Below are positions 11,601 to 64,000 of a DNA stretch of 64,000 nucleotides, one piece after another (positions within the stretch are counted from its first letter, which is position 1; every line of letters begins with the position of its first letter). Source of the DNA: Scenedesmus sp. ARA3 (Eukaryota; Chlorophyta; Chlorophyceae; Sphaeropleales; Scenedesmaceae); contig RWJK01000108.1 of the NCBI GenBank assembly GCA_004335835.1, positions 1-64,000 of the forward strand, written 5' to 3'. A program made the position numbers and the translations under genes. The notes below the pieces were generated by a model. It saw only the letters and a program-made list of their open reading frames with translations. It was not told the origin of the DNA and did not search any database.

Positions 11601-14600
11601 AGCTGCCGCTGCAGCCTCAAACGCCGCTGCCACTGCTTCTGAGGGCGTCGCTGCAGCCGCCGCTGCTGCTGCGATGCTCTGACCCTTCCCGAGCTGCTGC
11701 TGCTGCTGTGGCGACGATGGCACCGCAGGGCTGATTGCGGCGCTGATTGCTGCCTCCTGTGCCTCTGCTGCAGCGCTGCGCGGGGTGCAGGGTGCAGAGC
11801 TGGACTTGCTGGCATAGCCCAGAGGGCTCAAGCTGCCTGCAGCTGCTGCTGCAGTGGGGCTGGCTGCTGAGGCAGTGGGGCTGCGTGGGCTGTTGTTGGT
11901 GCTTGAGGTGCGTGGAGGGCGGTCAGCAATGTTCTGGTGCAGGTAGCCAGCCACAACAGATGGCCTGCAGCAGGACATACGGCATGAGAATGAAAGTTAT
12001 GATGCGATTTTGCACAACAGTCTGCTGGTCAGATGCACTGCCCACATTGCCACTGCTGCTGCTGGGCTATACTGCCAAGTATAACAGGTCTGCCGGGTGC
12101 TGCAGTGCTGCATGCGCAGCCGCTGCGGCACACCAGCTGGCAGCACAACTAGCCATCCAAAGTGGTAGCCATCTACAAAGCAACCGTCTCATGGTAGTGC
12201 GCTTTGTTTCACAAGTACATCTCTGCTGGCAGCCAGCACTCACCACTTGCCCTTGCTGCTGGTGCTGCTGTTGTTGCGCAGCAGCTGCCGCTGCGCATCC
12301 CCGGCGGATGGCGTGCTGCTGCCGTCCTTGCCATCTGCTGCAGCGCCCTCCTTGCCGCTTGCTGCCCCACCAGGGCTGGGTGTTGCTTGCCTGCACACGA
12401 ATGACAACACACAGGCAGGCAGCACCACACATAACGTCAGTGCAAGCCAGCCCAAGGCAGAGTGCATGCTTCGTACCCTTACTACAGGACTGCCGGCAGC
12501 AGCACAGCGTGCTATGCCATGGTACCAGTACTGCAAGCAGCCCAGGACCTCGCCGCACACACAAAACGCCCTCAACGTCCGCATTAGCGGAGCAGCACAC
12601 GCACCGCCGCAGCAGCTTTTCCTCTGTCAGCGCCTGCCGCGCCGCGATGGCGTCCTGCGTGGCCAGCGCCTTGGCTGCGCCGTGCTGGTCGCGCGCCACC
12701 TCCGCCCAGTACAGCTTCTTGGCCAGCTCGTCGCGCTCAGTGGTGACCGCAGCAAGGCCCGCCTGCAGCAGTACGATCAATCAAGGGCAGGTTGTGGTGA
12801 GGCTAGGTATGTATTGCTTTCCCAATTTCACCAACACAGTACAGCTTCTTGGCCAGCTCGTCGCGCTCAGTGGTCACCGCAGCCAGCCCAGCCTGCGGCA
12901 GTACGAACCAAAGCAGGCAGAAGGCAGTGCAGTGGATAGACACACTTTGGAATGGCGTTGTCCACATTACAGCTCCTTGGCCAGCTCATTGCGCTCAGCA
13001 GGCACCGCAGCCAGCCCGGCCTGCGGCAGAGCGCACATTTATAACTATCACAGTGTGCGCAGAGCGCGGCGTAGAGCTGAGTTGCTGCTGCGTGCGCGTA
13101 GCACCGACTTGTCCCTGAACAGCAACCGCAGTGTGAAGCTTGCTGCGCTCAGCCAACTGTGCACCAAGCATACACTGCCCAGCGCCATGCAAGCACAACC
13201 TGACATTTGCCCACCTGTGCCGCGGTGAGCTGCCCGCCCAGCTCCACCAGGCTGTGCCCAAGTTCTGCGCCAGCAGCCCCTCCATCCGGACACCATGACG
13301 CAAGCACAAGAACAAGACAGCAAAGCCGCCCACCTTTGCTGCCGTGAGCTGCCCGCCCAGCTCCACCAGGCTGTCCAGGTTCTGTGCCAGCAGCCCCTCT
13401 GTGCGCGCGTGCATGTCGCCGGCCTCCTGCTCCAGCCGCGTGTGCGCCTCCAGCAGCTCGGCCAGCTCCTCCGCCAGCACTTCACGCGAGGCTTGCACCT
13501 CCTCCAGGAACTGCAGCAACACGCAGCAGGACACAGCAGCAGCAAATATGAGGAAATGCCTGCCGCTTTGTTTTGCCCAGCATGTCATAGAGAACTTTTT
13601 TGCAGCAAAGCAAAGCAAGCAAGGTGTGCAGCTACGCAGGCAGGGCACACTGTTGCTCAGACAACCCAAAAACACACGCACAAGCCACATCCCCAACTGC
13701 ACGCAAGCAAACAGCATCACACCGCACCTTGTCGCTCTGGCGCAGCTCCTCCTGCAGCCGCGTCATGACACAACCTTCTGCGCATCTCCCTCTGCAGGTC
13801 ATGCTGTCGTGCTTACACACCCCGCAACACACACCGGCCACACCCCACCTTGTCGCTCTGGCGCAGCCGCATCATCACGCAGCAAGCTGCCGCAAACCAC
13901 CGGTTGCAGGCCATGCTGCCGCGCGCACACACCCCACAACATGTGCTGTCGCGCTTACACACCAACCACATCCCCTCTTCACCTTGTCGCTCTGGCGCAG
14001 CTCCTCCTGCAGCCGCTCCAGCTGCGCCGCCAGGCCCATGTTCTCGCGGCTCAGCTCGCTGTTCTTGTCGTACTCCTCGTGCAGCTTGCCCTCCGTCTCG
14101 CTCAGGCTGTCCTGCGCCTCGCGCAGCGTGGCGCCCTTGCTGGCCAGGTTGGCCTTCAGCGCCGTCACGTGGCGCTCCAGATCCTGCAGGGCGAAAGTGC
14201 ACAACCGCAAGTAAGCCGGCGGGTTAAAGACAGTTATTAGTGATAGTGGGCACTGACAATGCTTGAGTACAATGTAGAGCAGCGTGGCGCCCTTGCTGGC
14301 CAGGTGGGCCTTGAGCGCAGTCACGTGGCGCTCCAGGTCCTGCAAGGCAGCGGAACACAGCAAGACAGCCGCTTGATCAAATGTTCAGTCACGGTTGGTC
14401 ATGTACAAGCAGCATGGTACCCCTGCTGGCCAGGTTGGCTTTGAGGGCCGTCATGTGGTGGCCCAGATCCTGTGTGGCCATGGCACGGCATGGCATCACA
14501 CGGCCGCAACACAGCTGCTTGGTAAGAGGCCAATGCTGAGTGAACACTGAACGATTGGTCACTTACAAGTAGCGCCTGCTGGTGGTTGCTGCAGCGGCCG

Positions 14601-17600
14601 GGCCTTTGCGCTGCCCATCACGAAGCCCTCCGCGCTGCCCAACACGCAGCCCTCTACGCTGCCCATCACGCAGCCCTCTGCGCTGCCCAACACGCAGCCA
14701 CAACTTGGGATTAACTGTGCGGCGGGCACAGGCAGTGCTGCTGCTTGCTGCCTTGTTGCGTGTTGCACTCAACAAGGTTCAGTCCCTGTACGCTGAGCAG
14801 GGTGCTGTTGAACCTGGACACCACCAGGCGAACCCCTACCACCAAAATACACAGCAACAGCTACAACACACAGCCAGCCGAGCCAGCGCCTCACCGCCTT
14901 CTCCGCCTGCAGCTCCTGCAGCATGGCCTCGCGCTCCTCCAGCAGCTGCGTGCTCTCCATGAGGTGCTGGTCCAGCAGCTCACACCTGTCCACCACCTCC
15001 TCGTGCGTGGAGGTGAGCACCTGCAGCGCCAATCATGCAGCCACAGCAGCAGCCACAGGACCAGCAGCACAGCAGCGTAAGTCAGCCATCTCGAAGCGCT
15101 GAATAGGTCCAGCAGCTCACACGTGTCTACCACCTCCTCGAGCGTAGACGTCAGCACCTGCAGCAACAACAGCAGCCACAGGACCAGCAACGCAACAGTG
15201 TAAGTCGGCCGCCACACAGCGCTGAACAGGTTTGGCAGCTCACACGTGTCCACCGTTCTTGGAGGTGAGCACCTGCAGCGCCAACAATGCAGCCACAACA
15301 GCAGCCAGAGGACCAGCACCACAACCGCGTAAGTCAGCCGCCACACAGCGCTGAACAGGTTTGGCAGCTCACACTTGTCCACCATTTGTGGAGGTAAGCA
15401 CCTGCAGCGCCAACAATGCAGCCACAACAGCAGCCAGAGGACCAGCACCACAACCGCGTAAGTCAGCCGCCACACAGCGCTGAACAGGTTTGGCAGCTCA
15501 CACTTGTCCACCATTTGTGGAGGTAAGCACCTGCAGCGCCAACAATGCAGCCACAACGGAAGCACAGGGCCAGCGGCACAGCAGGATGAGTTAGCCATGT
15601 CAGGCAGGGCAAAGCAGGCACTACGCTGGCAGCACCATATGCTGCGCACGATGGTGGACGTGTGCTTGCCACACACGCCTCGCTGTGCGACACGCTGCGC
15701 GCAATCCATCACATGTACAGTCGCACAGTGCATCGCACAGTGCAGGGCAGACCACGGCTGGCGACACCACACAACGCTGCCATGTCCATATGCATGATGC
15801 AGAAGATACACATGAACCAGCTTGACAAGCTGCACCCCAGAATAAGTCGGACTTGTGGCCGTTCTCCTCTATACAGTAGCAGCATGTCATGCTGCCGCAA
15901 GCCCACCTTGTGTTGCTTCACCACATCTGCCAGCGTGGCCTGCTCCTGCTGCAAGCTGCTGGTCAGCTGCTGCACAGTGCTCTCATGCGCTGCCAGCTGC
16001 GCCTGCTGCTCCTGCACCTCCTGCTGCAGCTGCTGCCTAGCCGCCGTCAGCTGCGCAACGGCATCCTGCGAGTGCGCAAGCTCCTGCTGCTCATGCTGCA
16101 GCTGCTGCTTCAGCGACGCCAGCTCGCTGCTCTGCTGCTTGCTCTTCGCCTTGGCTGCTGCCAGCTGCTCCTGCAATGTCTGATTAGCCTCCTGGTGCTG
16201 CTGCAGCTGGGCCAGCGTGGTAGCTTGCTGGCTCTGCAGCTCAGCCTTCTCAGCAGTTGTTGCTGTCAGCTGCTGCTGCAGGCCGTCTGCCTTCGCTGCA
16301 AACTCCGCCTTCTCCTGCCGCAGCTCAGCAATGCTTGCTTCTGCTGCCGCATGCGTGGTCTGCAGGTGCTGCAGGTCGCTGCGCAGCTGTGCAGCGCTGC
16401 TGTTTGAAGCTGCCAGGTCAGCCCGCAGATCTGCTGTCTGCTCCTCAGACTGCCGCAGGTGCACCTGCAGCTCAGCGATGCTCGCCCGGCTGTCTGCCAC
16501 CTGCGCATCTGAAGCAGTCAGCTTGGACTGCAGCTGCGCAATGCTTGCCTCTGCTGCTGTGTACAGTCCCCGCAGCTGCTGCAGCTGCGACGACAGGTCA
16601 CTGTTGCATGCCTGCAGTGTCACCAGCTGCTCTTGCTGGCCCTGGCTGCGGTCCTCCAGCTGCTGCAGCTTGCTAGAGTAGTCTGCATAGGCAGCACGTG
16701 CCTCGCCCAGCTGCTCCTTGCTGGCAGACAGCTGCTGCTGCAGCTGCTCGCCCTTCTCCTGCAAGGCAATCCTCTCCTGCCGCAGCTCTGCGATGCTTGC
16801 CTCTGCTGCTGCATGTGTTGCCTGCAGGTGCTGCAGGTCACTGCTGAGCTGCGCATTGCTGCTGCGCGCCTCACTGAGCTGCTGCTGCAGCACGTCCACC
16901 TTAGTGCTCACAGTCTGCGCCTGGCCCTTGACCTGCAAGCAGCACACAGCAGAGACAGGAGCAGGCAATTGTCATGAGCAACATGCATGCACGGTTGTCG
17001 GATGACAAATAGCAAAATGGCATTGCGCGGGGCCGTAAGCACAAACAAGGCAATCCTGCAACCAGACAGACTGAGAGGTCTGCACATAGACCACTGCGCC
17101 ATGCAAGTTTGCCTTCAGCAATAATGACTTCCACGCACAACAGCACGGCAGCACCACAGCAGCGGCACCAGCCGCAATGCACACATCACCAGCGCTCACC
17201 TGCTTCTCCTCATGCATCATCACCTCCACCCTGCCGCGCTCCTTGGCCAGCAGCTCCCGCGCCTCACGCAGCTCATGGCTCAAGCTGGCCTTCTCACTCT
17301 TCACCTCCACTAGCTGCTTCTCCAAGCTGTTCACATTTGCGCGCTGCTCTGCCAGCACATCTGCCTTGGCCCTCGCGTCTGTCACCAGCTCCTTCTCCCT
17401 TGCCAGCAGGTCCCTGATCTGCCCCTGCTGCTCGTCCCGCAGCTTCTGTACCGCCTCCAGCTCTTGCTGCAGCAGCGCCTGCTGCTCAGCATGCTGCTGC
17501 GCCTGCTCCTGCAGCAGCTGCTGTGAATCCTGCTTTGCCTGCTGCAGCAGCTGCTGCAGCGCTGCATCATGCGCATCCTGCTGCCGCTGCAGCCGGTTGC

Positions 17601-24650: not shown

Positions 24651-24724
24651 TCACTCGTCAAAATCATCCTCCTTTGCCATGCTGGCATAATCACCGCCCA
24701 TGAGCCCCAGCACCTGCGCACGCG

Positions 24725-24767
<43 letters not shown>

Positions 24768-27700
24768 TCAGTTTGTCATCTCTGACGCCACCAGAGCTCA
24801 ACCTCAGAGCCCCACTGTGACGCAGCCTCCAGCCAGTTGTACAGTACACCTTGCATGCCTCAACCAATCAACTCAATTAACAACAGTATACACCATTCAA
24901 GCATCTCTCATGCACAGCGTGGCAGATTCGGCTGAGCCAAACAAAGGTCATTGAAGCGAAGGTGATGCATTGCGTGGCAGTGCACGTGGTCCAGAGCATG
25001 GTGTGCACGACATGATCCAGTAGGCCAGCAACACCCTCTCCTCACCTCCCTCCAGAGGGGCTTGGGTAACTGCAGGACCTGCTTCAAGCACAAGTTGCGC
25101 GACCCAGCAGCAGTGTACCTGCACGGCAGAGCAAACACAACCGTGCCAAGTCGTGACGTGTGCATCAAGGCTTATGCAGCTGGCAGCATGTGCATGCAGG
25201 CAACAGCTGGGCAAGGCATAGCATACTGCAGCGCGCAACAAACATGCACCAGGTTTATCCCAGCCGCACCAGCTTGAGGCCAATCACAGCAGGGCATGTG
25301 CAAGTAATATTGCACAACGGATGCAAATGCATGCACGACATCACTGCACTCAGTCGCTCACCATTTGCCCTTGTCAATCTCCTGCTGCAGCTCATTGCCC
25401 TCCCACACCATCGCCCCACAGAAGAACTTGAAGTTGTCCGCAGCAATGAGCCCGCCAGCAGCCTGCAGCAGGTATGAGCAACACAAGCAGGAAGAGGGGC
25501 AACTTTGCAAGTACAGCCCATCCCCAAGTTAGGCACACAGCTGCTGGCAGCAACAAACAAGAGGGCTGTGCACCCCAAAGGGCCATCCTGCAGTCAAGCT
25601 AGCGAATCAAACAAACAGCAGCACTGTTTTCATGATCCACTGCTCAACATCACCGCGCATGCAGTGCATGCAACAGTTGCTTCCTCAGTGCTGGTAGCCG
25701 TGGCGTGCTGTGCTACCCACCGCCTTGACTGCAGCTGCCTCGCCACCCACATACACGCCAGGGGCAAGCGCCACCGACCCTTCCAAGTTATGGCCGTGCA
25801 GAATGTGGAAAACCTGCAGGGCACAGGCAGCAAAGAGCCAAGCAGCACAGACCTCTGTGTCGACGACGGCATTACAGCGATATAACACGCCTGCATTCGG
25901 CTGTTACAGGTGCCGCTGGTGGCATGCTGTGATACAGAACAACCTGCTGCCGCGCTGCTGACAAAGTAATTGTGATCACCCGAGCTTTCAACACAAGCGA
26001 CTTGCGCATACATGCAGCTGATACCCACCCCCAGCTGTGCCGAACATTCCAAGCAGATGACTGCTGCAACCCTGTAGCCGTCCATCTGTCAGCACCCTGC
26101 TGCCACCTCCCTTCAAGTTCCTCTCCCCACACTCTCCTTCACCCACGCCACGCTAGCTCACTCACGTCTTGCCGCACCATGCCGCCACAGTACACGCGGC
26201 TCTCCGCAAACGTGTCCTGCATGCCTGCAGGCGCCCCTATGATGGCAAACTTGAGCCCTCCCCGCCCTACGCCCAGCTTGAGGCTGCTGGGCCTGTTGAG
26301 GATGAGGCCCACGCTGCCTGCAGGGGAGTGCTGCACCAGTAGCACCACAGCCTGCGGACAGGCATTGCAGCAGCATAAATGCAGCCAGCAGGAGAATCAG
26401 TGTGCTGGACTATCAGTACACCAGCAGCACCACAACCTGCATAAGGTGGCCAGCAGGCACGTATAATGAGTACAATTGCGCTGGATGTATGAAAACACGC
26501 GGAGGCTGCTGGGCCTGTTGAGGATGAGGCCCACGCTGCCTGCAGGGGAGTGCTGACCCAGCAGCACCACTGCCTGCAGGACAGGCAATGCAGCAACATT
26601 GAGGCATATATCAACTGAGTATGCTGGATGTACCAATCTACATGGGTTGAGAATCACTTTTCTTTTGCCCAACTCAGCCCCCATGTTGGAAATGCAGCCA
26701 GCACAGATAAGTCAGATAAAAGGGACCCGCCACATCAGTGTGTGCACAGCAACAACGCCTGCCAGCCTAGCTGCTGAGCTGCCGGGAGCACTGCCAGCCA
26801 TCACACTCGACTGCAGCCTGCTGCCATCATCTCCTGTGTGCTGCGCGCTACCCGTCAAGTTGCACAGCTGCTGTACTGCACTGCCACACCTGTTCATACT
26901 GACCCTCCAATGCTGCATAACCCTGTCACTGCCCTGACGGCACACTGAACTGGCACATTCCATGCGCTGCTGGCACAGGTACTGTTTGATGTATAGGCAT
27001 GCCATTTCCACACCTGCCAGTACTTGTCTGTATCAGGCACATCCCGTGAGGCCAGCAGCAGGCCGCCCACTTCCGGCTGCGCTGTGGCATGCGCCCACGT
27101 CTCCTCGCCAGCCAGCGAGGGGTTCTGCACCTGCAGCAGCCTGCTGTTCTCCTCAGACACGCGGCTGGCCCAGTTCACCTTGCCTGCAAAGGTCAGCACA
27201 CCGCAGGGCAAAGGAGAGCAGAGCAAAGTAGAGAGGGCAAGCAGGGCGGCATTACTCAAGCGTTTGAGTGGATGAGCAATGCTTCCAGTCCTCTGGGCAG
27301 TAGCTTACAACCACATGAAACAAATGAAAAGGGACAGCTGGTATGTATACAATGTCTAATTGATGCTTCTGCTTGTTGGCAGTGTGCTGTTATGCAGGAA
27401 ACAGTGCCGGTGCTTGCAGGAACAGTGCTGCACATAGCTACGGCCTGAGCTGTGCTTCATTTGCACAGATGCAGCCTGTTGCTGGTGGTGCAGATGCACC
27501 ACCCACCTGCATCAGCAACAAGCTTTGCCCTGAACTCTCTCCAGTCGCCTGCACAGCAGCAGGAGCAGTTGCAAACCATGTGCAGCAGCATGTGTTGAGC
27601 GCTGTACAGCCTGCAGCTACACCTACATGGTGCACCGCATTGTATGCGGCAGAGCCTGCAAGCAGCTTGACCTGGCGAACAGATACACTTGTTTCACAGC

Positions 27701-27886
27701 ATTGGAGAGCATCGGTTGACATTTGCTGCATCTCTACCCACCATAGAGGGTAGGTGTCTCTGCTGCTTCCCCAGTGTCGTCTGCTGCTGCTCTAGTGTGG
27801 TGCCGCAGTGCCGATCTCGGGGACTGCTGCACACGACGTGCTACTTTGCAACTACGACACGGTTGCACCTGCTGGAGCGCCAGCAT
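24651..27886 (-). CDS. AlgH/YqgE (UPF0301) family protein, plastid-type, 7 exons, 276 aa
   Basis: Exons: 27886-27742, 27183-27014, 26351-26166, 25813-25721, 25462-25362, 25118-25046, 24713-24651; the sum is 831 bases with all phases agreeing. The first exon encodes MLALQQVQPCRSCKVARRVQ and on, Arg/Ser-rich and acid-free, like a chloroplast transit peptide. The mature part shows the family landmarks: VGGLLLAS, VVLLVQHSPAGSVGLILNRP (about 107-126), YCGGMVRQD, VFHILHG, VYVGGE, FFCGAMVWEGNELQQEI, then QLPKPLWREVLGLMGGDYASMA near the end. UPF0301 proteins occur in bacteria and in plant plastids; their biochemical role is unsettled, so I give none. The last intron carries a (CAG)n tract at about 24735-24767. 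Confidence 0.88.
26419..26605 (-). repeat. two partial copies of AlgH exon 3 start
   Basis: A copy at about 26502-26605 repeats the acceptor, AVVLLGQHSPAGSVGLILNRPS and the adjacent intron bases of the real exon at 26351-26166, then runs into unrelated sequence. A shorter one at about 26419-26443 repeats only the acceptor plus about 19 coding bases. Because intron bases are copied too, these are DNA duplications. Confidence 0.8.
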
Positions 27887-39006: not shown

Positions 39007-39282
39007 TGGTCAAGACATTACGTTGCGCAACATCAGAGTGCAGCAGGTTGTAGAGCACCAGCCCCTCTCTGCTTTTAAATCCTGCGGCGGCAGCAGCAGC
39101 AGCCCCCTTGTACGCTAAGCACAGCCACCATGTGCCCCAAAGCAGTAGCCTAGCACAAATGTGCAGCTGCTGCAGGCTGCAGGTGCCTGGCAGGCTGGCG
39201 CCTGCTGTGCTGGCCGCACCTATCCTGAAGTCCCACTTCTGCCAGCTGATGTGCCAGCCATCCACCTTGAAGCTGGGGCCCT

Positions 39283-46652: not shown

Positions 46653-47781
46653 GCTGCTGCTGCTGCCAGATCATGGAGTCGCTGGGTGGTGACCAGCTGT
46701 GGGTGGACCGCTTCATGGCGCAGCACGCCGCCATCGTGTACTACGTGATCCTGGTGGGCCTGTTCACGCTCAGCCCGCAGCTGGCCTACAACTTCAGCGA
46801 GCTCATTGAGGCACATGCAGTGGACACCTACGGTGAGGCTTTGATAACATTGCGTTGCCAGAGTTTGACTCGGTTGTTGAGCTGGTGAACTTGAGTGACC
46901 GTCTGTGCGGCTGCACTTTCTTGTCGTCTTTATCCCTGAGAGGGTCTTGTAGCGCAGCTGGCGGTTAAGGGTGACCCACCAAGCTTGCGATTGTCAGGGC
47001 GTGCTACCACGCATGGCTGCTGCTGCTGGTGCTGCTGCTGCTGGTGCTGGTGCTGCTGCAGGCGAGTTTGCTGACGCCAATGAGGAGCTGCTCAAGACGC
47101 TGCCACCGCCGCTAGTGGCCGCGCAGTACTACCTGAGGTGCGCTGCAGCAGTAATTGGGTTTTCTTTTAGCCAGGGGCTGCGCAGCAATGGACCTGTAGC
47201 AGTAGCAGCATGCAGCAACACGCTTCAGCAGGGCTGAGCAGTGTGCAATAATGCGCCTGGCTGCTGTGCGCAGGCGGCTCCTGACGTGATGCGTGTCCTG
47301 CATCTGAAATGCTGTTATGCTGCCAAAAGTAGCAAGTTCAGGTACCACTGGCATCAATATCTTCAGCTTGTTTTGTTCATTTGCCGACCCCTCGTGCCAA
47401 TACCCGCCCTACAAACTTGCTTGCTGTGTGTTGCTTACCGTGCTTGATCACCTACCCGCAGCTGCGACTACTACCTGTTTGATGAGTTCCAGACTAGCCT
47501 GGCAGGCGGCACGCCGCGCACAGACCACTATAGCACTGCATGCTGCTCTGCTCACCACACTTGCATCTGCTGCCTGCAGCGGGGACTACTACCTGTTTGA
47601 TGAGTTCCAGACCAGCCTCTCAGGCGGCACGCTGCGCACCCCAAAGTGTGACACCCTGTATGACGTCTTCATCAACATCCGTGACGATGAAGGCGAGCAC
47701 GTGAAGACCATGGCGGCCTGCCAGGACTTCAGCATCATGGACGACCTGGAGGTTCGCCGTGAAACTGAGCGCCGCATCTAG
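42760..47781 (+). CDS. PTOX: plastid terminal oxidase (PTOX, alternative-oxidase family), 11 exons, 483 aa
   Basis: Exons: 42760-42848, 42944-43048, 43269-43410, 43772-43861, 44319-44339, 44613-44699, 44987-45142, 45947-46267, 46670-46832, 47062-47137, 47580-47781 (1452 bases, all phases agree). Residues 1 to about 65 are Arg/Ser/Gln-rich, a likely chloroplast transit peptide. The diiron ligands expected for the family are visible: Glu292 in FWFLET, Glu332 and His335 in NELHHL, Glu384 in LIEAHA, Glu454 and His457 in [17 protein letters not shown] and [13 protein letters not shown] are PTOX-like, separating it from mitochondrial AOX. The enzyme oxidises plastoquinol and reduces O2 to water in chlororespiration and carotenoid synthesis, on the thylakoid surface. 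A 21-base exon (AWANFAQ) is conspicuous. The N-terminal 110-residue extension before the core is less certain. Confidence 0.92.
43491..47522 (+). repeat. exon ghosts inside PTOX introns
   Basis: Copies of one exon end plus its splice site: exon 3 donor region at about 43491-43547; exon 7 donor end at about 45248-45322 and 45390-45470 (GSMSESCKQ then donor); exon 8 start at about 45842-45905 ([15 protein letters not shown], then a stop codon); exon 9 start at about 46532-46600 ([19 protein letters not shown]); exon 11 start at about 47459-47522 ([15 protein letters not shown]). They are close to the real exon but truncated or frameshifted. Confidence 0.82.
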
Positions 47782-47947
47782 ATATGTGACAGCTGCAGAT
47801 GCTGCAGTGTTGTGAGTGACCTGGGTGCGCGCCCTGAGGCGTGCGGTGATGCGCATGTGATGCGCAGCTGCAATCGAGTCCCTGCACGTAAGCAGCTGCA
47901 GCTGCTGCAGCATCACGGACGCCCTGCAGCTGCGTCGCACGGCCTGT

Positions 47948-48026
47948 GCAGACGATGGCCGCCTGCCAGGATTTCAGCATCATGGACGACCTGCAAGTGC
48001 GCAGCGAGACGGAGCGCCGCATGTGA
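47948..48026 (+). pseudogene. duplicated PTOX 3' coding end after the stop codon
   Basis: Beginning 167 bases past the PTOX stop codon the sequence reads [19 protein letters not shown] then TERRM and a stop codon, a near copy of the real C terminus. There is no splice acceptor needed for the real gene here, so this is a duplicate of the coding end lying in the 3' untranslated region. Confidence 0.85.
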
Positions 48027-50109
48027 TTCTGCAGCTGCTGCATTGCTAGGTTGAACAAATGTCAGCTGGGCAGCTCCAATTTGTGTTGCCAGTGGAGCAT
48101 GCATTGAGACAGATGCATGGCCGCATTCACCCTGCTGCTGTGGGGCAGGTGCTGCAAAGAGTTGTGATGTGCCAGGTGTATTTGACAGCATGGGTGAGTG
48201 CCTGCTGTGTATAGTTGCGTGGCGTTCGTAGTGTTGTGCAGAAGCAGAGGGATTGCTGCTGTATTGGCAGATGCCCTGCAATTCCTCGAGCACCCAGCAG
48301 CTGTGTATTTTGGTGCAGCATAGCCAGCCAGATGGCTTGAAACAGTCGTATATTCCTACGGTGCCCTGTTGAGCTTGGAGATTGGTGGCTTGGTGGCAAC
48401 GCTATAGGGCGTTGGGCATGCAATGTGCTGTCTGCAAAGTGTTCGTAACATTCACGACATCATTCGAGTGACTTGTGGGGTGTGTGACGTCATAACATGG
48501 ACAGGGCAGCCATAAGTTTTTTTGGAGAGCTTCAGCAACGGGGCCAGGGGTGCATTTTCTCCCGGCAGAGAAATGTGCTTTATTGATTTGGGCAAGCTGT
48601 GTGGCTGTCTGCCCTGTCTGTTTGTGGGGTGCATGTCTTATCATTGGTGCAATCACACCGCCACTGCACAATGTACTTCATCTTTGATACGGTCACGCAG
48701 CTTGGGTTACAGGGTGGTGATGGTCTGTGATTGAGCAGGGTTTGGATGCTCTCATGCAGCAACATGGGTGCACAGTTGGTGAGGATGTGCAGCCTCTTGT
48801 TGCAGCCTTGTCAGCAGCAGTTTGGTACGATGCAAGTACATTGGGAGGTTTGGTTTGCAGGGAACACAACAACTGGGTTAGTGTGCTGTGGAGTCTGGTG
48901 CATGGCATTCATGTGCAGCAGCAGTATTTGAGAGTGTGAAGCGGCGAGCATTGTCGCTGGTGCAGCTGACTGGCTGATGTTGCTGTAGATTTCCCCCTGA
49001 GCCGTATGCTTGAGTGACATCAGCAATGTTTGCTGCAACGCCTGCTGAGGCGGCTGCCTAATATACTGCACAGGCAGCTGCCCCGGTGTGGACGGTTGTC
49101 CTGCCTGTGCTTTCCAGTGTGCTAGATGGTTGGTGCACTGATCAAACAAAGGCAGCATAACACTGTTGATTGCCGGCAGATCTGGATGCGGCAGTGTCTG
49201 ATGGTGTGCTGGTGTGTCTGCCAGCAGTACATTATGCGGCATAGTCTATGCCTGGCTGGAGGCATGCGCAAGGCACTAGATGCCTCTTTGTGCCAGGCTA
49301 CTGCCAGCAATGCATGCAGCAGGTCGTGTTTGTGCCGCACCCGGCATGTTCAGTACTGTGTGCGAGTTGAATGGCAGATCAGCAGCATGACCTGCACTTT
49401 GATGTGTGCGCTTGCGACACGCGCAGGGTGACGACGATTGCATTGTCAGTTCTCGGGAGACGCGAAGAATGAGGTTGTAGTACAACAATTTAAAGCACAG
49501 GCTCATGCACAATTTAAAAGCAGGTCAGTTTTGTGGTGAAATGTACGCGGTCGCATTTGGATTTTTCAGATGCTGTACACCACATGGTGTGGTGGAGCTG
49601 CATTGAGCTTGCACCATGCCATGCTCAGGCTGGCATGCGTGCCATTGGGTTGGTCATGATTTTGTGCTCGGAAAGTACCCGAATTCTAAGTTCACCAGCG
49701 GAACGCTGGGTTGCGTTGGTGCCGTTGAGAACAGAACTGTGAACTCCACACCGCCACCGCAAGTCACCCAGCCTGGGCGCAGCACCGAGAACTGCACATG
49801 CAAAAGAACGGCATTTTTTTCAATTACAATAAAAACGTTTGCTACATCACTGGCTGAGCTCGCCTCCCATTTGATACACTTCAGTCAAGCGATCAGGTGC
49901 GCACGTGTACTGCTCACATTTTTGGATGGCTGCGCAGGACACTGAAGCGCGCGCAGAGCACATCGCTGCAAGGATCATATAGTTCTTCAAGGAAAACCTC
50001 CGTTTTGTGCTGGTAGACTTCCTCCCGTAGCAAATGCTTATCATCGTAATCAATTCACAGGGAAGTCCTCGGGCTCCAGCAATAGCTGATAACAAGAACT
50101 TGCGACATC
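48027..50109. other. long gene-poor stretch
   Basis: T/G-rich on the plus strand compared with the flanks. Open frames of 60-140 codons on either strand (for example 48727-48939 plus, 48811-49242 minus) start at non-ATG codons or lack any domain. An AT-rich segment runs from about 49810 to 50150. I see no supported gene. Confidence 0.4.
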
Positions 50110-50698: not shown

Positions 50699-51071
50699 CC
50701 TCAGCCGCGGCAGAGACCAAACGAGGGTGAGCGTGTACAGACAACCAGCAGATTTTCATGGAAGCCCCATGCTGCTGCATCTTAATGGTGTGAGCTGACA
50801 GCTCTGGGCTTTGCTATGCACTGATACATGTCCAAGCCCAGTCAGCACGGCAGGAGCCTCCTAGTGCGGCCCTGCAGCCATCAATGTTTGTGGCTTGTAT
50901 GTAACAGTGGGATGTCTACTAGTATGGCATAGTATGGCATTGATGCAACCGTGCAATGATTGGGGCAGTGCAGCAGGTGCTGCTGGTCCCAATGTACCCT
51001 TCCAGACCCCCAGCTACAAAACCTGTGTACACCCGCACACTGCACACGACCCATAATCTCCCACCCTGCAG

Positions 51072-51096
51072 GAACCTAGCTCCAGCCAAAGGGTCA

Positions 51097-51130
<34 letters not shown>

Positions 51131-52127
51131 CCCTGCCAGCTTCTTGGCCCACCTGGCCCATGCAGACACAAGCCGCAGCCGCGGTAAAACCCATGCAGTG
51201 CTCATCCCAGCACCCTCCAAGCAGCAGCAGCAGCAGTGGCAGCAGCAGCAGCTGCCTAGCTCATTCCCGAGCAGTGACATCGTGTATGGTGCAAGCCCAG
51301 AGGAGTGGGGCAACAGCTGTGGCAGTACCACTGGCTTGTGGGGTCCTCCTCAAATTGGGTTGATACTTCCTGCAAGAGCTCCTGCAGGCCTGCACCATCT
51401 GCAACTGGCAGGCAGCAGCAGCCTTGCGCCTAGTGCCTGGCCCGGCAGCGCTGTGCACACCAGTAGTGTATGTAACAGCATGGGACAGGCAGCAACCTTC
51501 TCTGCCTCGAAGCAGCAGCAGTGGCGGCAGCAGCAGCAGCAGCAGCAGCAACAGAAGGTGGAGGCAGCCCAGCTGCGAGCAATGCACCCCGGCAACTGCA
51601 ACAGCAGCAGCCTAGGCGTTGCAGGTGACCGTCCGGCGGCTTGCACTGCCGTTGATGCACCTGCACTGCCTGCTGCAGGGCTACACAGGGCCATCAGTGC
51701 TGTGGAGTTGAACGACTCAGTGCAGTGCCGCCTGGGGCCTGCAGCTCCTGCTGCTGCTGCTGCTGCTGTATATGTCTGTAGTGGACAGCCGCCTGCTAGT
51801 GGCCCGTGCATTGCCGCCTTGCTGGAGCGCTTTGAAGCGCGCCGCTGCACACCAGAGGAGAGAGCCGTCAAGCTTGCGCGCTACGAAGCAAAGCGTGTCA
51901 GGCGCAACTACGTGCACACTGTGCAGTACCAGTGCAGGAAGAGCTTAGCTGACTCACGGCCCCGGGTCAGGGGCAGTTTTGCGAGAGACGGCGAGCCTGG
52001 GAGCGTGCTGCCACACCAGACAAAGAAAGCACAGCAGCAGCAGCAGCAGCAGCAGCAGGGTCAGGTGGCTATCCAACCACAGCTGCCTTGGCTGGGCGCA
52101 AGCAGCAGCATAGCTGGGCCTCCCGTG

Positions 52128-52224
<97 letters not shown>

Positions 52225-52580
52225 CGGCTCCCCTGCTGAAGCTGCTGCCAACACAGCAGCCGCCACTAGATGCACTGCAGCAGCATCTGGGACCCTCAGC
52301 TCCTGCTGAGGCCGGCCTGCTGGAGCTTGGCAGCAGCGCATTTGGCAGCGGCAGCGGCAGCAGCAGTGGCAGTGGCGGCTGCACCCTGCATGCTGCTGTG
52401 CCCCCAGCAGGTCCAGCTGGTCACAGTGCACCAGCTGCTGCTTCAGGGACAGCAGCAGCAGCAGCAGCAGTAGCAGTAGCAGCAGCAGCGGCGGCGGCGG
52501 CTGCAGCCGGGGAGGCTGACGAGGATGAAGAGGATGTGTTTGCTGGATTGGCTGCTACGCTGTTGGGCGATGATGTGTGA
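51072..52580 (+). CDS. CCT-motif transcriptional regulator, partial 5' end, at least 502 aa
   Basis: An open frame follows an acceptor (ACCCTGCAG) at 51071 and runs to the stop codon at 52580. The first in-frame ATG is far inside, so a short upstream exon is needed; 50956-50976 (MIGAVQQ then GTGCTG) fits the phase but is speculative. The diagnostic part, at about 51830-51990, is AVKLARYEAKRVRRNYVHTV followed by QYQCRKSLADSRPRVRGSFAR, a CCT motif as in CONSTANS-like and TOC1-type plant proteins, which contact DNA or NF-Y subunits in the nucleus. I see no B-box or response-regulator domain upstream. The motif sits mid-protein, followed by a Gln run, about 31 Ala in a row and an acidic end DEDEEDVFAGLAATLLGDDV. 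Light or clock regulation is the family context, not shown here. Confidence 0.8.
52129..52222 (+). repeat. (GCA)n tract encoding about 31 Ala
   Basis: An almost pure trinucleotide run inside the CCT-motif gene, read as poly-Ala. It is the longest uninterrupted triplet repeat that I see in the window. Length variation between strains is expected. Confidence 0.95.
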
Positions 52581-54773: not shown

Positions 54774-57740
54774 ATGCCGAGGCTCACGCTGCGGAAGGTG
54801 TGTGAGCAAGGCAGCCCACGTATGAGTCTAAATAGCAGCAAAATGTTTTGAACCTGTAGTAGTGTCTGCGTTGAGGCTATGCATGAGAGCTGCTGACACT
54901 GCACGTGTGCTGCTGCTGCTGCTGTGGCGATATCACCACATGTTGCCACTCACCCTGCAGGTAAATGCGTTCACCACTGGTGGTGTGGCTGCCACAGGCA
55001 ACCCTGCAGCTGTGTGCCTGCTGGATGCAGCACTGCTGGGAAGCATGCCAGACAGCCTGCGGCAGAGCATCGCAGCAGACATTGGCCTGTCGGAAACAGC
55101 CTACGTGGAACCGGTGAGTGCAAACCTACAGCATGTTTGTATCCAAGTACCTGCAAGGCGTGTTTGCTGATTGGCAGGGCTCTTCTATGAATTGTTGACT
55201 GCCAGGGCTCTGTTATAGGATGCAATGCGCCAGCAGGTGGCACTGCATTTGTCAGTAAGGCTGATGTCAGGCACACATAACACAGCATGCGCTGTGACTC
55301 AAGAATAGCAGCAGTCACAACTTCAGCAACCGCTGCCAGCTGTGTCATGTACGTGTTGCACATACTTGATGCTGCGTCCTGCCTGCACGGCATGGCATTT
55401 TTGCATGTTCTTGGTGGAACCCTTCAGGTGCGGCTAGCGACACTTTTGACTGGCCGTGAAAGCCGGCACAGACCTTCAACAGTTATGAATCGACAATCAA
55501 AAGTGGGTTGCCTGCTCCTTGCTGTGTTTTGCTCCCACACAAACACTGCAGCTGGATCCTACCTCCAGCTCAGCGCCTGATGTCTTCAAGCAGCTCGACA
55601 CCTTCAGGCTGCGCTGGTTCACGCCCGCAGCAGAGGTGCCGCTGTGCGGCCATGCCACCCTGGCCTCTGCTGCCACCCTCTTCACAGGTGCGGCGCCTGC
55701 AGCTGAAGCAGCTCAAGTGCGGCTGCATGGTGTCCTAATTGATAGAGTGGGGGTCCCAGGCTAGGCAATGAGCAGGCACAGTGCTGGTATGCCGTAGGTG
55801 GCGGTCTCATGCAACGTCATGGAATACTGTGCAGGTCAAAAGCATGGGGAGCTCCACAGCAGCAGTAAGCAGCAGGGGCAATGGCACTGCATTGAACATC
55901 CAGGTATTTGACAACGGTCCGTAAGCCTCGTTGTTTTTGTCAACCGTAAGCCTCGTTGTTTTTGTCGACGCTGCACAGAATGCGGCAATCCAGCACCCAC
56001 GCTGCACTTTCACACCCTCAGTGGAATCCTGTCAGTCACCCGGCAGCAGCACGGCCAGCAGCAGCTGCTGCAGATGAGCCTGCCGCTGTCAGCAGCAGCA
56101 GACCCGCTGCCGCCGCAGCTGCAACCGCCGGCAAGCTGCTCACCCACAGCGGCGGCTGCAGCAGCAGGCAATGCAGCGCCAGCAGACCCCTCTGGCGGCA
56201 ATGCGGCCATGTTCTCACAGCTGTTTGCAGAGAGCGCTCGGCTAACAGAGCTGCTGTACACAGCCCTGAGCTCTTTACCATCAACAGCAGCAGCAGCAGC
56301 AGTGCCAGTTGCGCCGGGAGCTTCAGCAGCAGCAGCAGACAAGGCCGCGTGGCTCTCTCATGTTGTGCACCATGTGGGGTATGTGGCTCCCCTCAAATAC
56401 ATGCTGGTGGCCCTGCAGCCAGCGCTGCAGCTAGGCAGGCGGGGGCTGGAAGCGCTGGCACCTGATGCTGCTGCGCTGGAGGCGGCAGGGAGCTCCGACT
56501 TGATGGGCGGCCTTATTGTCAGCACACTGCCTAGTCCAGGTGAGAGATGGGCATTGGTGTGAAGTGCTAGCGGCGGCTGTGGCATTGGCCGCCTCCTACC
56601 TCATGCTGTGAGGTGTTGCATTCAGCAGGCTCTGTTGAAATTGCATTTGTGTTGGTCTGTGTTTGACAACCGGCGCTGCAGCTGGGCAGGCAGGGGCTGG
56701 AGGTGCTGACAGTTGATGCTGCTGCGCTGGATGCGGCAGGGAGTGCGGACTACATGGGGGGCCTGATTGTCAGCACACTGCCTAGCCTAGGTGGGAGATA
56801 GGCACTGCTGTGAACTGCTGGCACTGGCTGTGGCGGTTGCAGCCTCTGGCCTCACTCTGGGAGCTGCTGCATTCATCGAGCTCTCTCTTTCATATTTAAT
56901 AAGGGCCATTGCGTTTGTGCATGTTCGGCAGCCTATGGTCATAGACTTGGCAGGCAGGGCTAGAGGGGCTGGCACTGGATGCTGCAGCGCTGGAGGCGGC
57001 CGGGGGCACGGGGCTACTTGGGAGGTCTCATCGTCGGCAGGGTACCTAGCCCAGGTGCGCGGTAGCTACCTATGCCTCTAGGCCGCTAGGCTGGTGCAAA
57101 GTGCTGGCCGCTGGCTGGGCACTCTTTGACAGTTGCCTTGCAACCCCTCCCCCTCCCACTATATTCAATGTATGCATTGCTCAACTGCTGTGCCTTGAAT
57201 GGCAATGAAGTTCTTGATGATGTGCTCTGCTTGCTGCCACGCAGCGCAGGCGAGGAGGGAGAACACGGCCTCCACAGCCGCTTCTTTGGGCCCTGGCTGG
57301 GCGTGCCAGAGGACCCCGTCATTGCTATCTGTATGTTGCTTGATGACTGCCGGCACACCATGCTCTGCTGCTGCCTGCCAGCACGTCACCATATTTTCCC
57401 AGCATAACTGGTGCTTATTTGTTGCGGTGCCTGTCCTGCCCTGCTCTGCCCTGTCCTGTATCATTTCATTCATCCTTACTAAACAGGCGAGGAGGGTGGC
57501 TATGACTTTCACAGCCGCTTCTTTGGCCCCTGGCTGGGCGTCCCAGAAGACCCCGTCACTGGCTCAGCGCACGCAGTGCTGGCGCCATACTACGCAGCCG
57601 TGCTGCGCAAGCAGCAGCTGTTTGCGCGGCAGTGCTCTGCGCGTGGTGGTGATGTGTGGATGGATGCGGCAGCGCAGCCTGGCCGGGTGCTGGTTAGTGG
57701 CGAGGCGGCGATGGAGCAGACATGGGAAGCAGAGTACTAG
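54774..57740 (+). CDS. PhzF-family (phenazine biosynthesis-like) isomerase/epimerase protein, 5 exons, 375 aa
   Basis: Exons 54774-54797, 54961-55113, 55552-55687, 55979-56539, 57487-57740 (1128 bases). The fold's two halves are visible. N-terminal half: [20 protein letters not shown], then LSETAYV with the catalytic Glu of the family, then [21 protein letters not shown]-terminal half: [20 protein letters not shown], then [18 protein letters not shown] and GRVLVSG. Exon 4 carries [12 protein letters not shown] and then about 60 residues of Ala/Pro/Ser low complexity that lengthens the protein beyond the usual 260-300. Family members catalyse proton shifts on small acids; eukaryotic ones have no agreed substrate. 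The 24-base first exon (MPRLTLRK) was chosen because it matches the family's short N-terminal strand; an in-frame ATG further upstream is possible. Confidence 0.86.
55921..55966. repeat. short tandem repeat in PhzF intron 3
   Basis: Two copies of GTAAGCCTCGTTGTTTTTGTC, 25 bases apart, immediately before the exon 4 acceptor. Confidence 0.8.
56668..57340 (+). repeat. ghosts of PhzF exon 4 end and exon 5 start
   Basis: The end of exon 4 ([20 protein letters not shown] to the donor) recurs at about 56668-56800 and, more decayed, at about 56950-57052. The start of exon 5 recurs at about 57245-57340 with its acceptor ([15 protein letters not shown]) and then fails. So both sides of intron 4 are filled with copies of the neighbouring exon ends. 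Confidence 0.85.
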
Positions 57741-57855
57741 CCACTGATGGTATCAGCCTGCCCGTCTCGGCATTGCATGCAGCATCACCATGTTCTAGAG
57801 AGTCAAGGTCACGTGCGTGAAGCAAAGAGCGCATCCAACCTGCTGTTTGCATAGC

Positions 57856-58500
57856 AGCTGTTTGCGCGGCAGTGCTGGGCGCGTGGCAGTGACGTGTGGA
57901 TGGATGTGGCAGCACAACCGGGCCGGGTGCTGGTTAGTGGCGAGGCGGCGATGGAGCAGACATGGGAGGCGGAGTACTAGCCACTGATGGTATCAGCCTG
58001 CCCGTTTTGGCATTGCATGTATCATCATGCGATTTCAGAGAGTCGAGGTCACGTGCGTGAAGCAAAGAGCAGACCCAACCTGCCTTTTGCGCAGCAGCTG
58101 CTCCGCGCGGGGCGGTGACGAGTGGGTGTATGTAGCAGCGCCGCTGCGGCAGCGGGGGCGGGTGCTGGTTAGTGGCGAGGCGGCGATGGAGCAGACATGC
58201 GTGTGGGAAGCAGAGTACTAGGAGCCATGCGGAGCACAGTACCAGCATCTTGCATTCCGTCTAGCTGTGTGAGTACCCATTATGTTGGCTTGTGCTTGTT
58301 ATGTATGACCTGCATGCACGCTGTAACATTAGGCGGTCGCCAAAGCTCTGTCAAGTCCTTCTGAGGCCCGTGCTGGTTCTGTAATGGTCAGTGGGGAGGC
58401 GGCGATGGATTCAAAAAAAAGCTGGTTGCCTTGATTACAAGCACAAGCACAATGCAGCATGATGCGTACTCACATGGAGGAGACATGGGAGGAATAGTGC
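57856..58500 (+). repeat. tandem copies of PhzF 3' coding end after the stop codon
   Basis: The stretch [16 protein letters not shown] to the terminal WEAEY and stop codon is repeated at about 57856-57979 and 58097-58221, with weaker remnants at about 58383-58411 and 58478-58500. The units are about 240 bases apart and include the region after the stop codon (CCACTGATGGTATCAGCCTG). Only the first copy is joined in frame to the gene. Confidence 0.88.
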
Positions 58501-60892: not shown

Positions 60893-60992
60893 ATGTCTAC
60901 GGACCTGGCGCTGTATGAGCAGCTGAACAAGGAGCTGGTGTCACTAGTGGAGCACTTCACCACCCTGGTCAAGGCCACGCGCGAAGGTGCGC

Positions 60993-61037
<45 letters not shown>

Positions 61038-61368: not shown

Positions 61369-61402
<34 letters not shown>

Positions 61403-63314
61403 TACTGCTGCTACTGCTCAGGGCTAGAAGCTGACGAGTCGGCAGATCCGAAGGAGAAAGATGACAAAGGCGGCAGCACCGCCGCCGCTGCCGCCCCTGC
61501 TGCCGTTTCGCGCAGTGAGCGGCGCGTGCCAGGGGAGCTGCTGGAGGTGGTGGTGGAGAAGCTGCTGGCAGCAGGTGCGTTACATGTTATTGTTATTTGT
61601 TATTTTCCAATCTAACATGTGACATGTATTATTTTCAAGCAGTCCTCAGGGCCGGCGGCATTGGCGGCAGCTGTTGGTGCGTTGAGCCGTTGATGCGCAA
61701 GTTGAGCAGCCTAGCAGAGTATGCCACCGCCAATGCCGCAGATGCTTGCGAGCATGCTGGTGGCCGCTGACTCGCTGGTGCAGCAGCATTTATTGGTGGC
61801 GGCTGCTGTGATTCAACCAATCAACCAACCGCGCACCGCAGGCCAACAATGCATCCACAGAGTGTTGCAGGTCAAGAAGTCGGCCGTGATAAACAGTTGT
61901 GCCACATTGCCATGTTGCTGTCGTTCAAATCAACCTTCAGGCCACCAGTGCTTCCACACCGTTTGCAGCTGAAGATGTCAGCCATGGTCAGCGACTTGCC
62001 ATGCTCGTGCACACTAATGCTGCACATGTGTCTGTTGCCTTTGCGCCTGTTGCTGTATTTCAGCCCATTCCTCTGGCCACCAGTGCATCCACACCGTCTC
62101 GCAGCTCAAAGTCGCTGCCATTGCACACCAATGCTGCTCATGTTTCTGCTGTCCGTTCGGCTTGTGCTATGTTGCAACGCACCTTGAAGGCCACCAGTGC
62201 ATCCATACAGTGTCTCAGCTGAAGCAGTCTGCCATGGTCAGCGACTTTGCCACGCTCATGCACAGCAACGCGTCACATGTGTTTGCTGCCTCTGCGCCTC
62301 TTGCTGCAGGCCACCAGTGCATTTACACGGTCCCGCAGCTGAAGATGTCTGCCATGGTCAGCGAATTACCATGCTCATGCACACTAATGCGTGCACTGTC
62401 ACATTTGTCATGTTGTGGGTGTTGCAGGCCACCAGTGCATCCACACAGTTTCCCAGCTCAAGAAGTCAGCCATGGTCAGCGACTTTGCCACGCTGATGGG
62501 CAATTAATTCTGCCCTTCACCAGTATCTGCAGGCCGCCAGTGCATGCGCGCACGGCCTCAAGCAGAAGAAGGGGGCCATGGCACACCATTGCTACAAAAG
62601 TTCCTGATGTCTTTGCTGCTGTTGGTGTGTCTCCTCTCGCCTGCAGGCCACCAGTGCATCCACACAGTGTCCCAGCTCAAGAAGTCGGCCATGGTCAGCG
62701 ACTTTGCCACGCTCATGGGCAACGTGCACGCGGTGCAGCAGCGGCTCACCAGCGACACCTACCACACCACGCGCGGCCTGGAGCACATAAAGCGGGACGC
62801 AGGTGCGGAAGAAACAAAGACATTGGAGTTGCTGAAGCAGCCGTGCTGCATGCATTGGCGGTGCGTGCTGCTGCGTGGCACGCTTCAACTCCAAGGGGAA
62901 CATGACAGGCCTCCGAGCTGCAGCAGCAGCAGCAGCTGTCCACAGATCTGGATCTCCTCTTGCTACTTTGGCACATTATGAGTGAAGCGGCACATGTATG
63001 CAGAGCACAAGGTTCCATAAGCATTTGCCTCCGTCGTGCAGCCGCCGCCGTGTGCTCACTCCTCTCAGCTGCTGCCTGAGCGTCATTCTACTTCTTACAC
63101 ACGCACATGAGATGCAAATGCAACTGATCACACTCACCAAATGCGATGATGACTCTGCCAACATGCAGAGAACCTGCTAGCGGAGCTGGAGCAGCACTAC
63201 TACAGCAGCAGCCACAAGGGGCCCCTGCCCAGCACCCAGCAGCAGGGCGGCGAGGCGCAGCCGGGCAAGCTGGCAGAGCTCTGCGCACAGGCGCTGCAGA
63301 TGACGGGCGGATGA
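60893..63314 (+). CDS. MED22: Mediator complex subunit 22, 4 exons, 182 aa
   Basis: Exons 60893-60986, 61422-61574, 62647-62802, 63169-63314 (549 bases, phases 1/1/1). The order matches MED22 (Surf5 family): LYEQLNKELVSLVEHFTTLVKATRE, the first helix; then LLEVVVEKLLAAGHQCIHTV followed by SQLKKSAMVSDFATLMGNV, where plant relatives have a similar AADSLLKLVSELK stretch; then ENLLAELEQHYYSSSHK, the conserved ELExHYYSS end. MED22 sits in the Mediator head and helps connect activators with RNA polymerase II. The acidic Lys/Ala insert in exon 2 and a Gln-rich tail are local additions. The start is the first ATG in frame; a longer frame upstream begins with TTG. A (CAG)n tract follows the first donor at about 60995-61036. 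Confidence 0.84.
61846..62600 (+). repeat. about seven decayed copies of MED22 exon 3 start
   Basis: Copies beginning with GCCACCAGTGCATCCACAC-like sequence occur at about 61846, 61938, 62075, 62187, 62308, 62426 and 62530, in the intron just before the real exon at 62647. Most keep the CAG acceptor and the reading QLKKSAMVSDFATLM to varying length; the copy at 62426 keeps it to the last codons before a TAA. Spacing is about 90-140 bases. Divergence is greatest in the first and last copies. Confidence 0.88.
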
Positions 63315-64000
63315 GGCACGCTTAACGCTGTTACCAACAGCTCCGCAGGGGCCATGTCATGGACAACAGCGCTTGAGAGCAGAAATGTGGCGCCATGGTT
63401 TGTCCTGCCAGCTTGCAAGCACTTGCCTGCCTCTGGCAGAGCTGCGCGGGCAGTCGCTGCAGATGACCGGCTGAGGGCTGCACAGCAGACAGCGCCTGCG
63501 GATTGTGTGTTGTTACAGGCGCAGCCGGGCAAGCTGGAAGAGCTGTTCGTGCAGTTGTTTCTGCATAGCTCAGGGCAGCGCTTCTACATTGCCGAAGCAC
63601 TGCACAAGTGCCACGGCTGACAGACCAACGGTTTCAACAGTTTTTTTTTATCAGGGGGGACGGAATCCTACTGGCTCGCTACCACAGCACAATTGGGCAA
63701 GCCCAATTGTCGGGAGCGGGAGGCAGTGCCTCACCAGCAGAACACGTCACAACACCCTATACAGGAGGTGCCGACAGTTTGACAGCTATAGATCTGCGGC
63801 TGTTTGTTGCAGACATGCACAACTGAATGGGAGTCACAAGTGAAGAGGCATTGCGCCGCTCAAATGTAGCATCGATGCTTGTAAGTTACCTTGCTGAACC
63901 CTGCTGCAACAGCAGCCACCGCAGCTGGAGCGCAACCAAAACTGTCCACCACCTTTATGACTGCAACCACTGCCGTCAACCATAGCAGGGCCTCTAAAAC
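63315..64000. other. MED22 downstream region with 3'-end remnants
   Basis: Two fragments of the MED22 C-terminal coding end are repeated after the stop codon: about 63436-63474 (LAELRGQ, LQMTG, stop codon) and about 63518-63548 (AQPGKLEEL). TGTAA at about 63868-63872 could be a polyadenylation signal. No other gene is seen up to the window end. Confidence 0.6.

Follow-up and report, generated by a model that had tools for sequence, protein, structure and literature searches.

The known system closest to the structures described here is tandem genomic duplication, of which ATP2A1, linked with the work of Hellsten in 2011, is said to be a case. In the passages of a 2012 review drawn on in this study (PMC3443670), it is given as one of seven mechanisms of intron gain, and within-gene duplication is referred to as frequent in eukaryotes. 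The part of the paper of Ma (2016) used here (PMC4974935) describes a duplicated intron-exon stretch including the acceptor in potato RdRp; local duplication is held there to be an important source of introns, of which few recent cases are known. In this study, we analysed 64,000 nucleotides of the green alga Scenedesmus sp. ARA3, positions 1-64000 of contig RWJK01000108.1 (C58 in our numbering), and this whole stretch is called the window below. A preliminary description had noticed truncated copies of exons beside the exons themselves, and our analysis confirmed that copies of exon edges, that is of splice sites or stop codons with the adjoining coding sequence, lie in the neighbouring non-coding DNA.

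The assembly consists of 87.27 Mb in 1567 contigs. The GC content is 0.57, in line with Scenedesmaceae such as Tetradesmus obliquus, for which the sections of PMC5966456 used here give 57% GC, a mean intron of 462 bp and 7.8 introns per gene. The sample comprised the window and 22 further stretches of the same genome (about 203 kb), 266.8 kb in total; the latter are called L001, L006 and so on, and places in them are written as stretch:position. An unmasked self-comparison indicated that the repeats of the window other than CAG runs are almost all close and direct. Short-period repeats (periods up to 24 bp) were then masked before the pairs were counted, and three order-2 Markov shuffles served as the null. 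In the masked window, local direct copies with a partner less than 1 kb away formed 60 pairs in 25 clusters spanning 12707-63544, which agrees with the earlier count of well over thirty copies in about 51 kb, since all of them lie inside the span claimed. The whole sample held 224 direct and 9 inverted pairs, while each of the three shuffles held 0 direct pairs and 1 inverted pair; the copies are thus local, direct and recurrent at the DNA level, as had been proposed. They also extend beyond the window, as one or more local direct pairs were present in 18 of the 22 sampled stretches. The fraction of sequence taken up by local copies was 11.0% in the window and 7.3% in the sample, and the clusters are patchy across 5-kb bins (variance 3.22, mean 1.63). 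In stretch L021, unlike the others, 25 of the 28 direct pairs are more than 1 kb apart, and a dispersed repeat family may be present there. In the masked self-comparison no local direct pair of the window ended before 12600, and positions 1-12600 are free of such copies, unlike the remaining window.

Fifteen pairs and then the sorted lists were read by eye, and most of the pairs were exon edges. In a typical copy, the acceptor and the first ~50 nt of an exon stand again upstream, or the last ~50 nt and the donor stand again downstream. For the exon-edge test, codon scores and splice motifs of 86 non-redundant pairs with gaps of at least 30 bp (37 pairs had gaps below 30 bp) were compared with those of 331 random segments of the same genome. 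Exon edges were about 3.3-fold over-represented at a score of at least 8 (40/86 pairs against 13.9% of random segments) and about four-fold at stricter cut-offs (30/86 against 8.8% at 12 or more; 17/86 against 4.8% at 16 or more), although these counts are approximate and some true edges scored low, such as the AlgH-like edge at 26280, since the codon model was trained on these very sequences (822 seed codons). This excess over a same-genome control supports the earlier reading that the copies gather around exon edges. A directed scan of 40 edges gave 61 copies, and two of these edges gave none.

Without imposing any geometry, and at a coding score of at least 5, copies of exon starts lay upstream and copies of exon ends downstream in 39 pairs, with 8 pairs reversed and 1 ambiguous; at the strictest score (at least 15), 9 pairs fitted, 4 were reversed and 1 was ambiguous. 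Judged from the protein of relatives, at least one reversed pair (46531/46667) is a mis-assignment in which real exon and copy were swapped. In 24 of 41 edge-bearing pairs, no more than 20 bp separated one end of the copy from the splice site; the other end lay within the exon. The copies carry intron or 3' flank bases adjoining the splice site or stop; they are therefore not spliced retrocopies, a point on which we agree with the earlier reading. The exon part is 82-100% identical to its source, and the copies overall differ from it by 0-30%. Several copies have lost the splice site, for example L001:3433 and one copy of the array at 61838, and the second splice site is missing from most copies read by eye. 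The proposal that each copy holds one boundary with adjacent non-coding bases and lacks the far half of the exon is right for a large share of the pairs but not for every pair. Two of the edges are stop codons (47701/47946 in PTOX, and 63253 with 63433 and 63517), which indicates that splicing itself is not needed for copying.

The PTOX gene on the plus strand shows copies at five edges, namely one exon end, three exon starts and the stop codon. The exon end at 45068-45156 has two copies, at 45248-45334 and 45388-45477. Copies of exon starts were found at 45835-45896 (real start 45937-45998), at 46531-46597 (real start 46667-46733, with a CTG-rich spacer) and at 47432-47521 (real start 47549-47639). 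The stop-codon edge at 47701-47796, ending in TAG, has a copy at 47946-48038 in the 3' flank, which ends in TGA and retains the frame and a stop. The best match to the protein read from the real exons comes from Scenedesmus sp. NREL 46B-D3, at 95% identity over aligned columns. In six of seven proteins of relatives, one PTOX exon junction is passed without an insert, so the original splice sites are those that these relatives use, and the C-terminus, where present, follows the real exon and not the copy. The seventh protein, a genome-derived model of Scenedesmus sp. NREL 46B-D3, has a 52-residue insert exactly at the exon junction and extra residues at another; this could be the type of error that spare edges provoke in gene models. 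A diverged PTOX paralog with an 88% match lies on another contig (C1233:26860-28710). It carries exon-end copies at 27656-27708 and 27760-27834, and the same exon end in the window has none, so that the process acted independently there.

This paralog, with copies of its own on a different contig, speaks against an assembly artefact, as do the 0-30% divergence of copies from their source and the arrays, which hold as many as six or seven copies in different states of decay. The assembly does contain gaps written as runs of N, but we regard an artefact as scarcely credible.

The copies stand some 110-120 bp from one another. The quantity that varied least was the edge-to-copy step, at 121.9 bp (SD 17.8; 43 pairs with offsets of 60-165 bp), and a second peak at 245.7 bp (SD 21.7; 31 pairs with offsets of 200-300 bp) is near twice the first step; both offset windows were picked by eye. 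Core length and gap were negatively correlated in the first and second offset class (-0.60 and -0.81), with alignment trimming adding to this correlation. Among 197 direct pairs less than 2 kb apart, 65 had offsets of 100-139 bp and 11 had offsets below 100 bp. In 38 of 61 spacings of the directed scan, adjacent copies stood 100-139 bp apart, and in 9 the distance was 220-259 bp. More than 110,000 matches to (CAG)6 occur on each strand of the assembly. The suggestion that slippage in CAG-rich DNA triggers the copying was not borne out: a CAG or CTG hexamer was within 12 bp of 96 of 344 copy ends (28%), compared with 25% of 1720 nearby random positions. A weak correlation was seen between the duplication clusters and the CAG content of 5-kb bins (rho 0.34, p 0.014).

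The copies could also stem from ordinary random tandem duplication followed by neutral decay, with the exon-edge appearance explained by the frozen exon partner, by survivorship and by the eye of the reader. Tandem units of similar size without a recognisable exon do occur (for example at 37232, L011:3302 and L019:2086), and a frozen partner does slow the divergence of exon copies. We compared the two halves of the copied unit with a neutral tandem simulation that was run with the observed exon divergence and had the frozen-exon asymmetry built in. The intron score fell below the 5th percentile of the simulation in 29 of 40 pairs. Among the 26 pairs with an identity of 88% or higher, 25 were below it, and for these the asymmetric simulation predicts far more intron similarity than they show. 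In the 14 youngest comparisons of real edge and copy (exon divergence below 8%), the intron flank (6-56 bp) had a median divergence of 0.469, close to the 0.483 of unrelated flanks, and none of the 14 had an intron divergence within twice the exon divergence plus 0.1. Plain tandem decay was rejected by the simulation; its rescue needs introns that mutate at least three times faster than the exon copies they carry, and we consider it quite improbable.

On the other hand, the intron side is not without homology. Homology beyond 10 bp into the intron was detected in 12 of 40 pairs, where 2 were expected from local controls (p 3.7e-7), and against a splice-matched null the intron side gave p 3.5e-9, or p 1.4e-4 after the first 8 bp were skipped. 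Homology on the far side of the exon was weak (p 0.15 and 0.037). The persistence of intron homology in 12 of 40 pairs suggests that the original unit likely included intron. Full-unit tandem arrays with homologous intron parts lie across several edges, for example at 12707, 14123, L015:2331, L017:2074 and the 61838 array. At L017:2074, copy one differs from the real exon by 1 mismatch and copy two by 4, and the spacers differ by only 1. The exon and intron histories are discordant also in L018:5051 and in the PTOX paralog on C1233; none of these arrays is significant singly. The age discordance is shown in aggregate, and single arrays are suggestive. No gradient of divergence away from the splice site was found in 24 pairs. 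Taken together, the young exon halves, the residual intron homology and the full-unit arrays lead us to see in the copies old tandem units with a renewed exon part.

We accordingly propose, as a tentative reading that may well be right although we hold it with less than even confidence, that serial local tandem duplication produced units of ~120 bp spanning an edge, and that their exon part was later copied again from the intact exon. First, a unit of ~100-140 bp straddling a splice site or stop codon would be duplicated in tandem; the outer edge would remain in use and the extra edge would be stranded in the intron. We deduce this step from the orientation of the copies, which is direct, from their offset and from the weak homology of the introns. 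Second, the stranded copies persist, and one or more truncated copies per edge are seen ~120 bp apart. Third, the intron half would decay, while short-tract gene conversion or further slippage would occasionally rewrite the exon half with the sequence of the live exon, leaving exon halves that look younger than their units. Finally, most copies would otherwise be neutral passengers that lengthen introns and carry putative cryptic splice sites.

An unlikely but serious alternative is that the copy was pasted in one step: ~50 nt of exon and a few intron bases would have been inserted again, ~65 bp deeper in the intron and separated from the original by unrelated DNA. This could happen when a break or a replication error close to the edge is resolved by a staggered break with filler or by a double template switch. 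Copies end sharply and have unrelated flanks even when they are 93-98% identical, which fits this reading, as does the short intron part of the copy, 20 bp or less in the 24 of 41 pairs mentioned above. In the PTOX paralog, in this one case, the intron start that resembles the PTOX intron of the window comes after the last copy, and the units therefore look inserted at the donor. The homology that 12 of 40 pairs retain on the intron side argues against pasting. So does the SD of the offsets in the 43 pairs, 17.8 where 28.4 is expected for an independent core and gap, although the offset window and trimming contribute to this difference; moreover, no local template and no shared element was found in 12 spacers tested. 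A similarly doubtful reading is that copying is specific to coding edges throughout the genome, placing ~50 nt of exon, together with the splice site or stop codon, into the adjacent non-coding DNA. It would act in ~120-nt steps, repeatedly from the live exon and without the surrounding intron, and would have left tens of thousands of spare ends.

The codon positions of the mismatches bear on whether selection keeps the copies, as decoy splice sites, alternative ends or for another function at the nucleotide level, in which case decay would be slower in the exon part than in the surrounding intron. In 40 pairs, the mismatches that separate the copied exon from the real one fell on codon positions 1/2/3 as 47/41/125, a position-3 share of 0.587 (125/213), where simulated neutral copies with equal rates gave 0.45-0.49. 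Only 1 stop occurred among 191 differing codons, compared with ~2.6-3.4% in the simulation. Fewer indels per substitution were found in edge pairs (8/245) than in low-coding pairs (35/299; p 6.6e-4), a comparison confounded by alignment length and by edges within the control list. The intact frame and stop of the PTOX stop-codon copy is in agreement with selection as well. Looser counts, however, lowered the share to 0.53-0.54 with 5-6 stops (46-57 pairs) or to 0.57 with 3 stops (26 pairs), and the simulation itself reached 0.52-0.57 when synonymous change in the exon was 1.5-2 times faster than change in the copies. In 12 multi-copy arrays, the changes private to a copy were distributed as 29/16/41 over the codon positions and those private to the exon as 1/1/9; the 86 copy-private changes comprised 46 nonsynonymous, 38 synonymous and 2 stop changes, and the nonsynonymous and stop changes speak against selection. 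The loss of splice sites noted above, the missing second splice site of most copies read by eye and the lack of a gradient toward the splice site do so too. The copies differ from one another like snapshots of an evolving exon, and as such snapshots also yield a synonymous excess, the excess is no proof of constraint. It hints at copy evolution slower than neutral, which re-copying leaves unexplained. We judge selection to be rather improbable and favour re-copying over it.

Coding-like differences together with unalignable introns would also be expected if unequal exchange had brought in the copies from a haplotype or paralog that was strongly diverged. Several pairs show such differences, for example L020:3358, where 9 of 10 mismatches are at codon position 3 (8 of 9 in another count). 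However, a search with three loci found no closer source in this assembly. For two edges (L020:3330-3560 and 38590-38890), the best matches on other contigs reached 81% (66 bp) and 83% (54 bp), and L020:3330-3560 also matches its own contig nearby; the PTOX paralog stands at 88%. This origin is very unlikely in our opinion.

Several observations weigh against the duplication and re-copying that we prefer. Conversion predicts a position-3 share of at most ~0.5, and the observed 0.587 departs from this (p 0.007). Direct signs of conversion tracts were absent, re-copying being deduced from the age mismatch. Intron homology was not detected in 28 of 40 pairs, as one-step pasting predicts, and the ~120-bp step has no known cause. 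In addition, 21 of 52 five-kb bins held no clusters where 10.1 were expected, and 4 of 22 stretches held no pairs, two of which (L006 and L007) have 13-14 predicted coding segments.

The remaining edges of the window belong to several genes, some of which had been named in the preliminary description. Pfam supports the labels fasciclin, copper amine oxidase, PhzF and alternative oxidase (PTOX); the AlgH-like match is just under the Pfam cut-off (25.4 against 27 bits), and the fragment labelled MED22 matched no Pfam family. On the minus strand, the gene labelled coiled-coil has an exon-start array with the real edge at 12707-12771 and copies at 12837-12901 and 12965-13029. Two exon ends follow, at 13328-13399 (copy 13209-13282) and at 13980-14016, where the copy at 13725-13761 is identical in 37/37 positions. 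There are exon-start arrays at 14123-14472 (real edge 14123-14186; copies near 14279-14342 and 14409-14472) and at 14969-15601, where Tandem Repeats Finder (TRF) gave 4.5 copies of a ~129-bp unit and the real edge is 14969-15027. The AlgH-like exon start at 26280-26376 has a copy at 26502-26599 (93%), with a degraded third copy between them by eye. The fasciclin exon end at 30778-30802 is copied at 30643-30667; near this gene there is a run of N at ~30.1-30.2 kb (108 N in the whole window), the length of which may be arbitrary.

Further along the same strand, an exon end at 34100-34233 has a copy at 33855-33989 and is accompanied by a multi-copy exon-start array at 34240-34973, and an edge at 36897-36938, assigned by eye as exon end or stop, has a copy at 36781-36822. 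The copper amine oxidase gene shows an exon start at 37992-38065 (copy 38116-38191), an exon end at 38826-38879 (copy 38601-38654 and an array to 38340) and a second exon start at 38923-38967 (copy 39044-39088). Another exon start at 40633-40687 is copied at 40750-40804. On the plus strand, the PhzF exon end at 56416-56552 has copies at 56667-56803 and 56946-57057 in a region reaching 57065, its exon start at 57484-57561 has a copy at 57247-57324, and a tandem array of 2.5 copies of a 240-bp unit lies at 57613-58221. The gene labelled MED22 has an exon-start array at 61838-62722, with the real edge at 62646 and seven earlier copies by eye or six by scan. The last edge of the window, the stop codon at 63253-63311, has partial copies at 63433-63474 and 63517-63544.

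Other repeats and low-complexity regions were also observed in the window. A tandem array of about five copies of a 23-bp unit lies at 2449-2569, and a low-complexity open frame of 1116 amino acids, rich in Ala, Ser and Gln, occupies 8646-11996 on the minus strand. The open frame at 51057-52580 has long poly-Ala/Gln runs and includes a perfect (CAG)31 tract at 52129-52222.

A rough extrapolation from 61 copies of 40 edges in 267 kb gives ~20,000 copies genome-wide. These copies would lengthen introns and scatter spare splice sites, and gene prediction would also be affected by the spare edges. The genome would allow the birth, neglect, loss and recruitment of duplicated splice sites, together with intron growth, to be followed, and research on replication and repair could take the ~120-bp step and the age mismatch between the exon half and the intron half as quantities to measure.

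Several known systems share part of this pattern. Close direct repeats and short local duplications, reportedly treated by Achaz and co-workers and by Thomas in 2005, are direct, short-range and ageing as well, but the copies described here are tied to coding edges above control and have unrelated DNA between them. Patch-mediated repair at staggered breaks leaves a duplication with filler, that is a repeat with unrelated DNA between; it predicts neither a fixed step nor boundaries at coding edges. In vertebrates, decoy or cryptic exons, whose splice sites lie within introns and are non-productive, regulate intron retention. They are not copied locally from the adjacent exon edge, and a function of this kind for the present copies is hypothetical. 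Introner elements differ in that the 12 spacers scored no better against each other than shuffled ones, and tandem or mutually exclusive exons differ in that, in the pairs read by eye, the copies end inside the exon and unrelated DNA follows.

Rogers and Bendich (2025) also describe direct repeats near splice sites, but in the portion of their paper used here (PMC11782384) these measure 4-30 bp and lie at both borders of one intron, while ours are longer copies of one border. Within-gene duplication resembles the present case in its frequency, and the cited passages describe neither a ~120-bp step nor truncated edge copies for it. Our literature searches found nothing on partial exon-edge copies in introns, and the papers on Scenedesmus and Sphaeropleales that were consulted do not use the word intron in their main text. 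The statement in the preliminary description that no named class fits was nevertheless too strong, as the cited passages of PMC3443670 and PMC4974935 name tandem genomic duplication among the sources of introns. The likeness to it lies in a direct local duplicate of a genic segment with splice signals. In the cases given in these passages, however, a new intron arises in coding sequence, and here the copies lie inside existing introns or the 3' flank, with the intron half of the unit mostly beyond recognition. In PTOX, the gene that was checked, the original sites match the proteins of relatives. Tandem duplication of a whole unit implies that all its parts diverge equally, which holds in some full-unit arrays and fails in 25 of the 26 pairs that are 88% or more identical. 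As no new intron was seen where this could be checked and divergence along the unit is unequal, we do not file the copies as members of that class. The ~120-bp step and the combination of a young exon half with an old intron half are not described in the cited passages of either paper, and edge-specific copying, if shown, would go beyond a variant of tandem genomic duplication.

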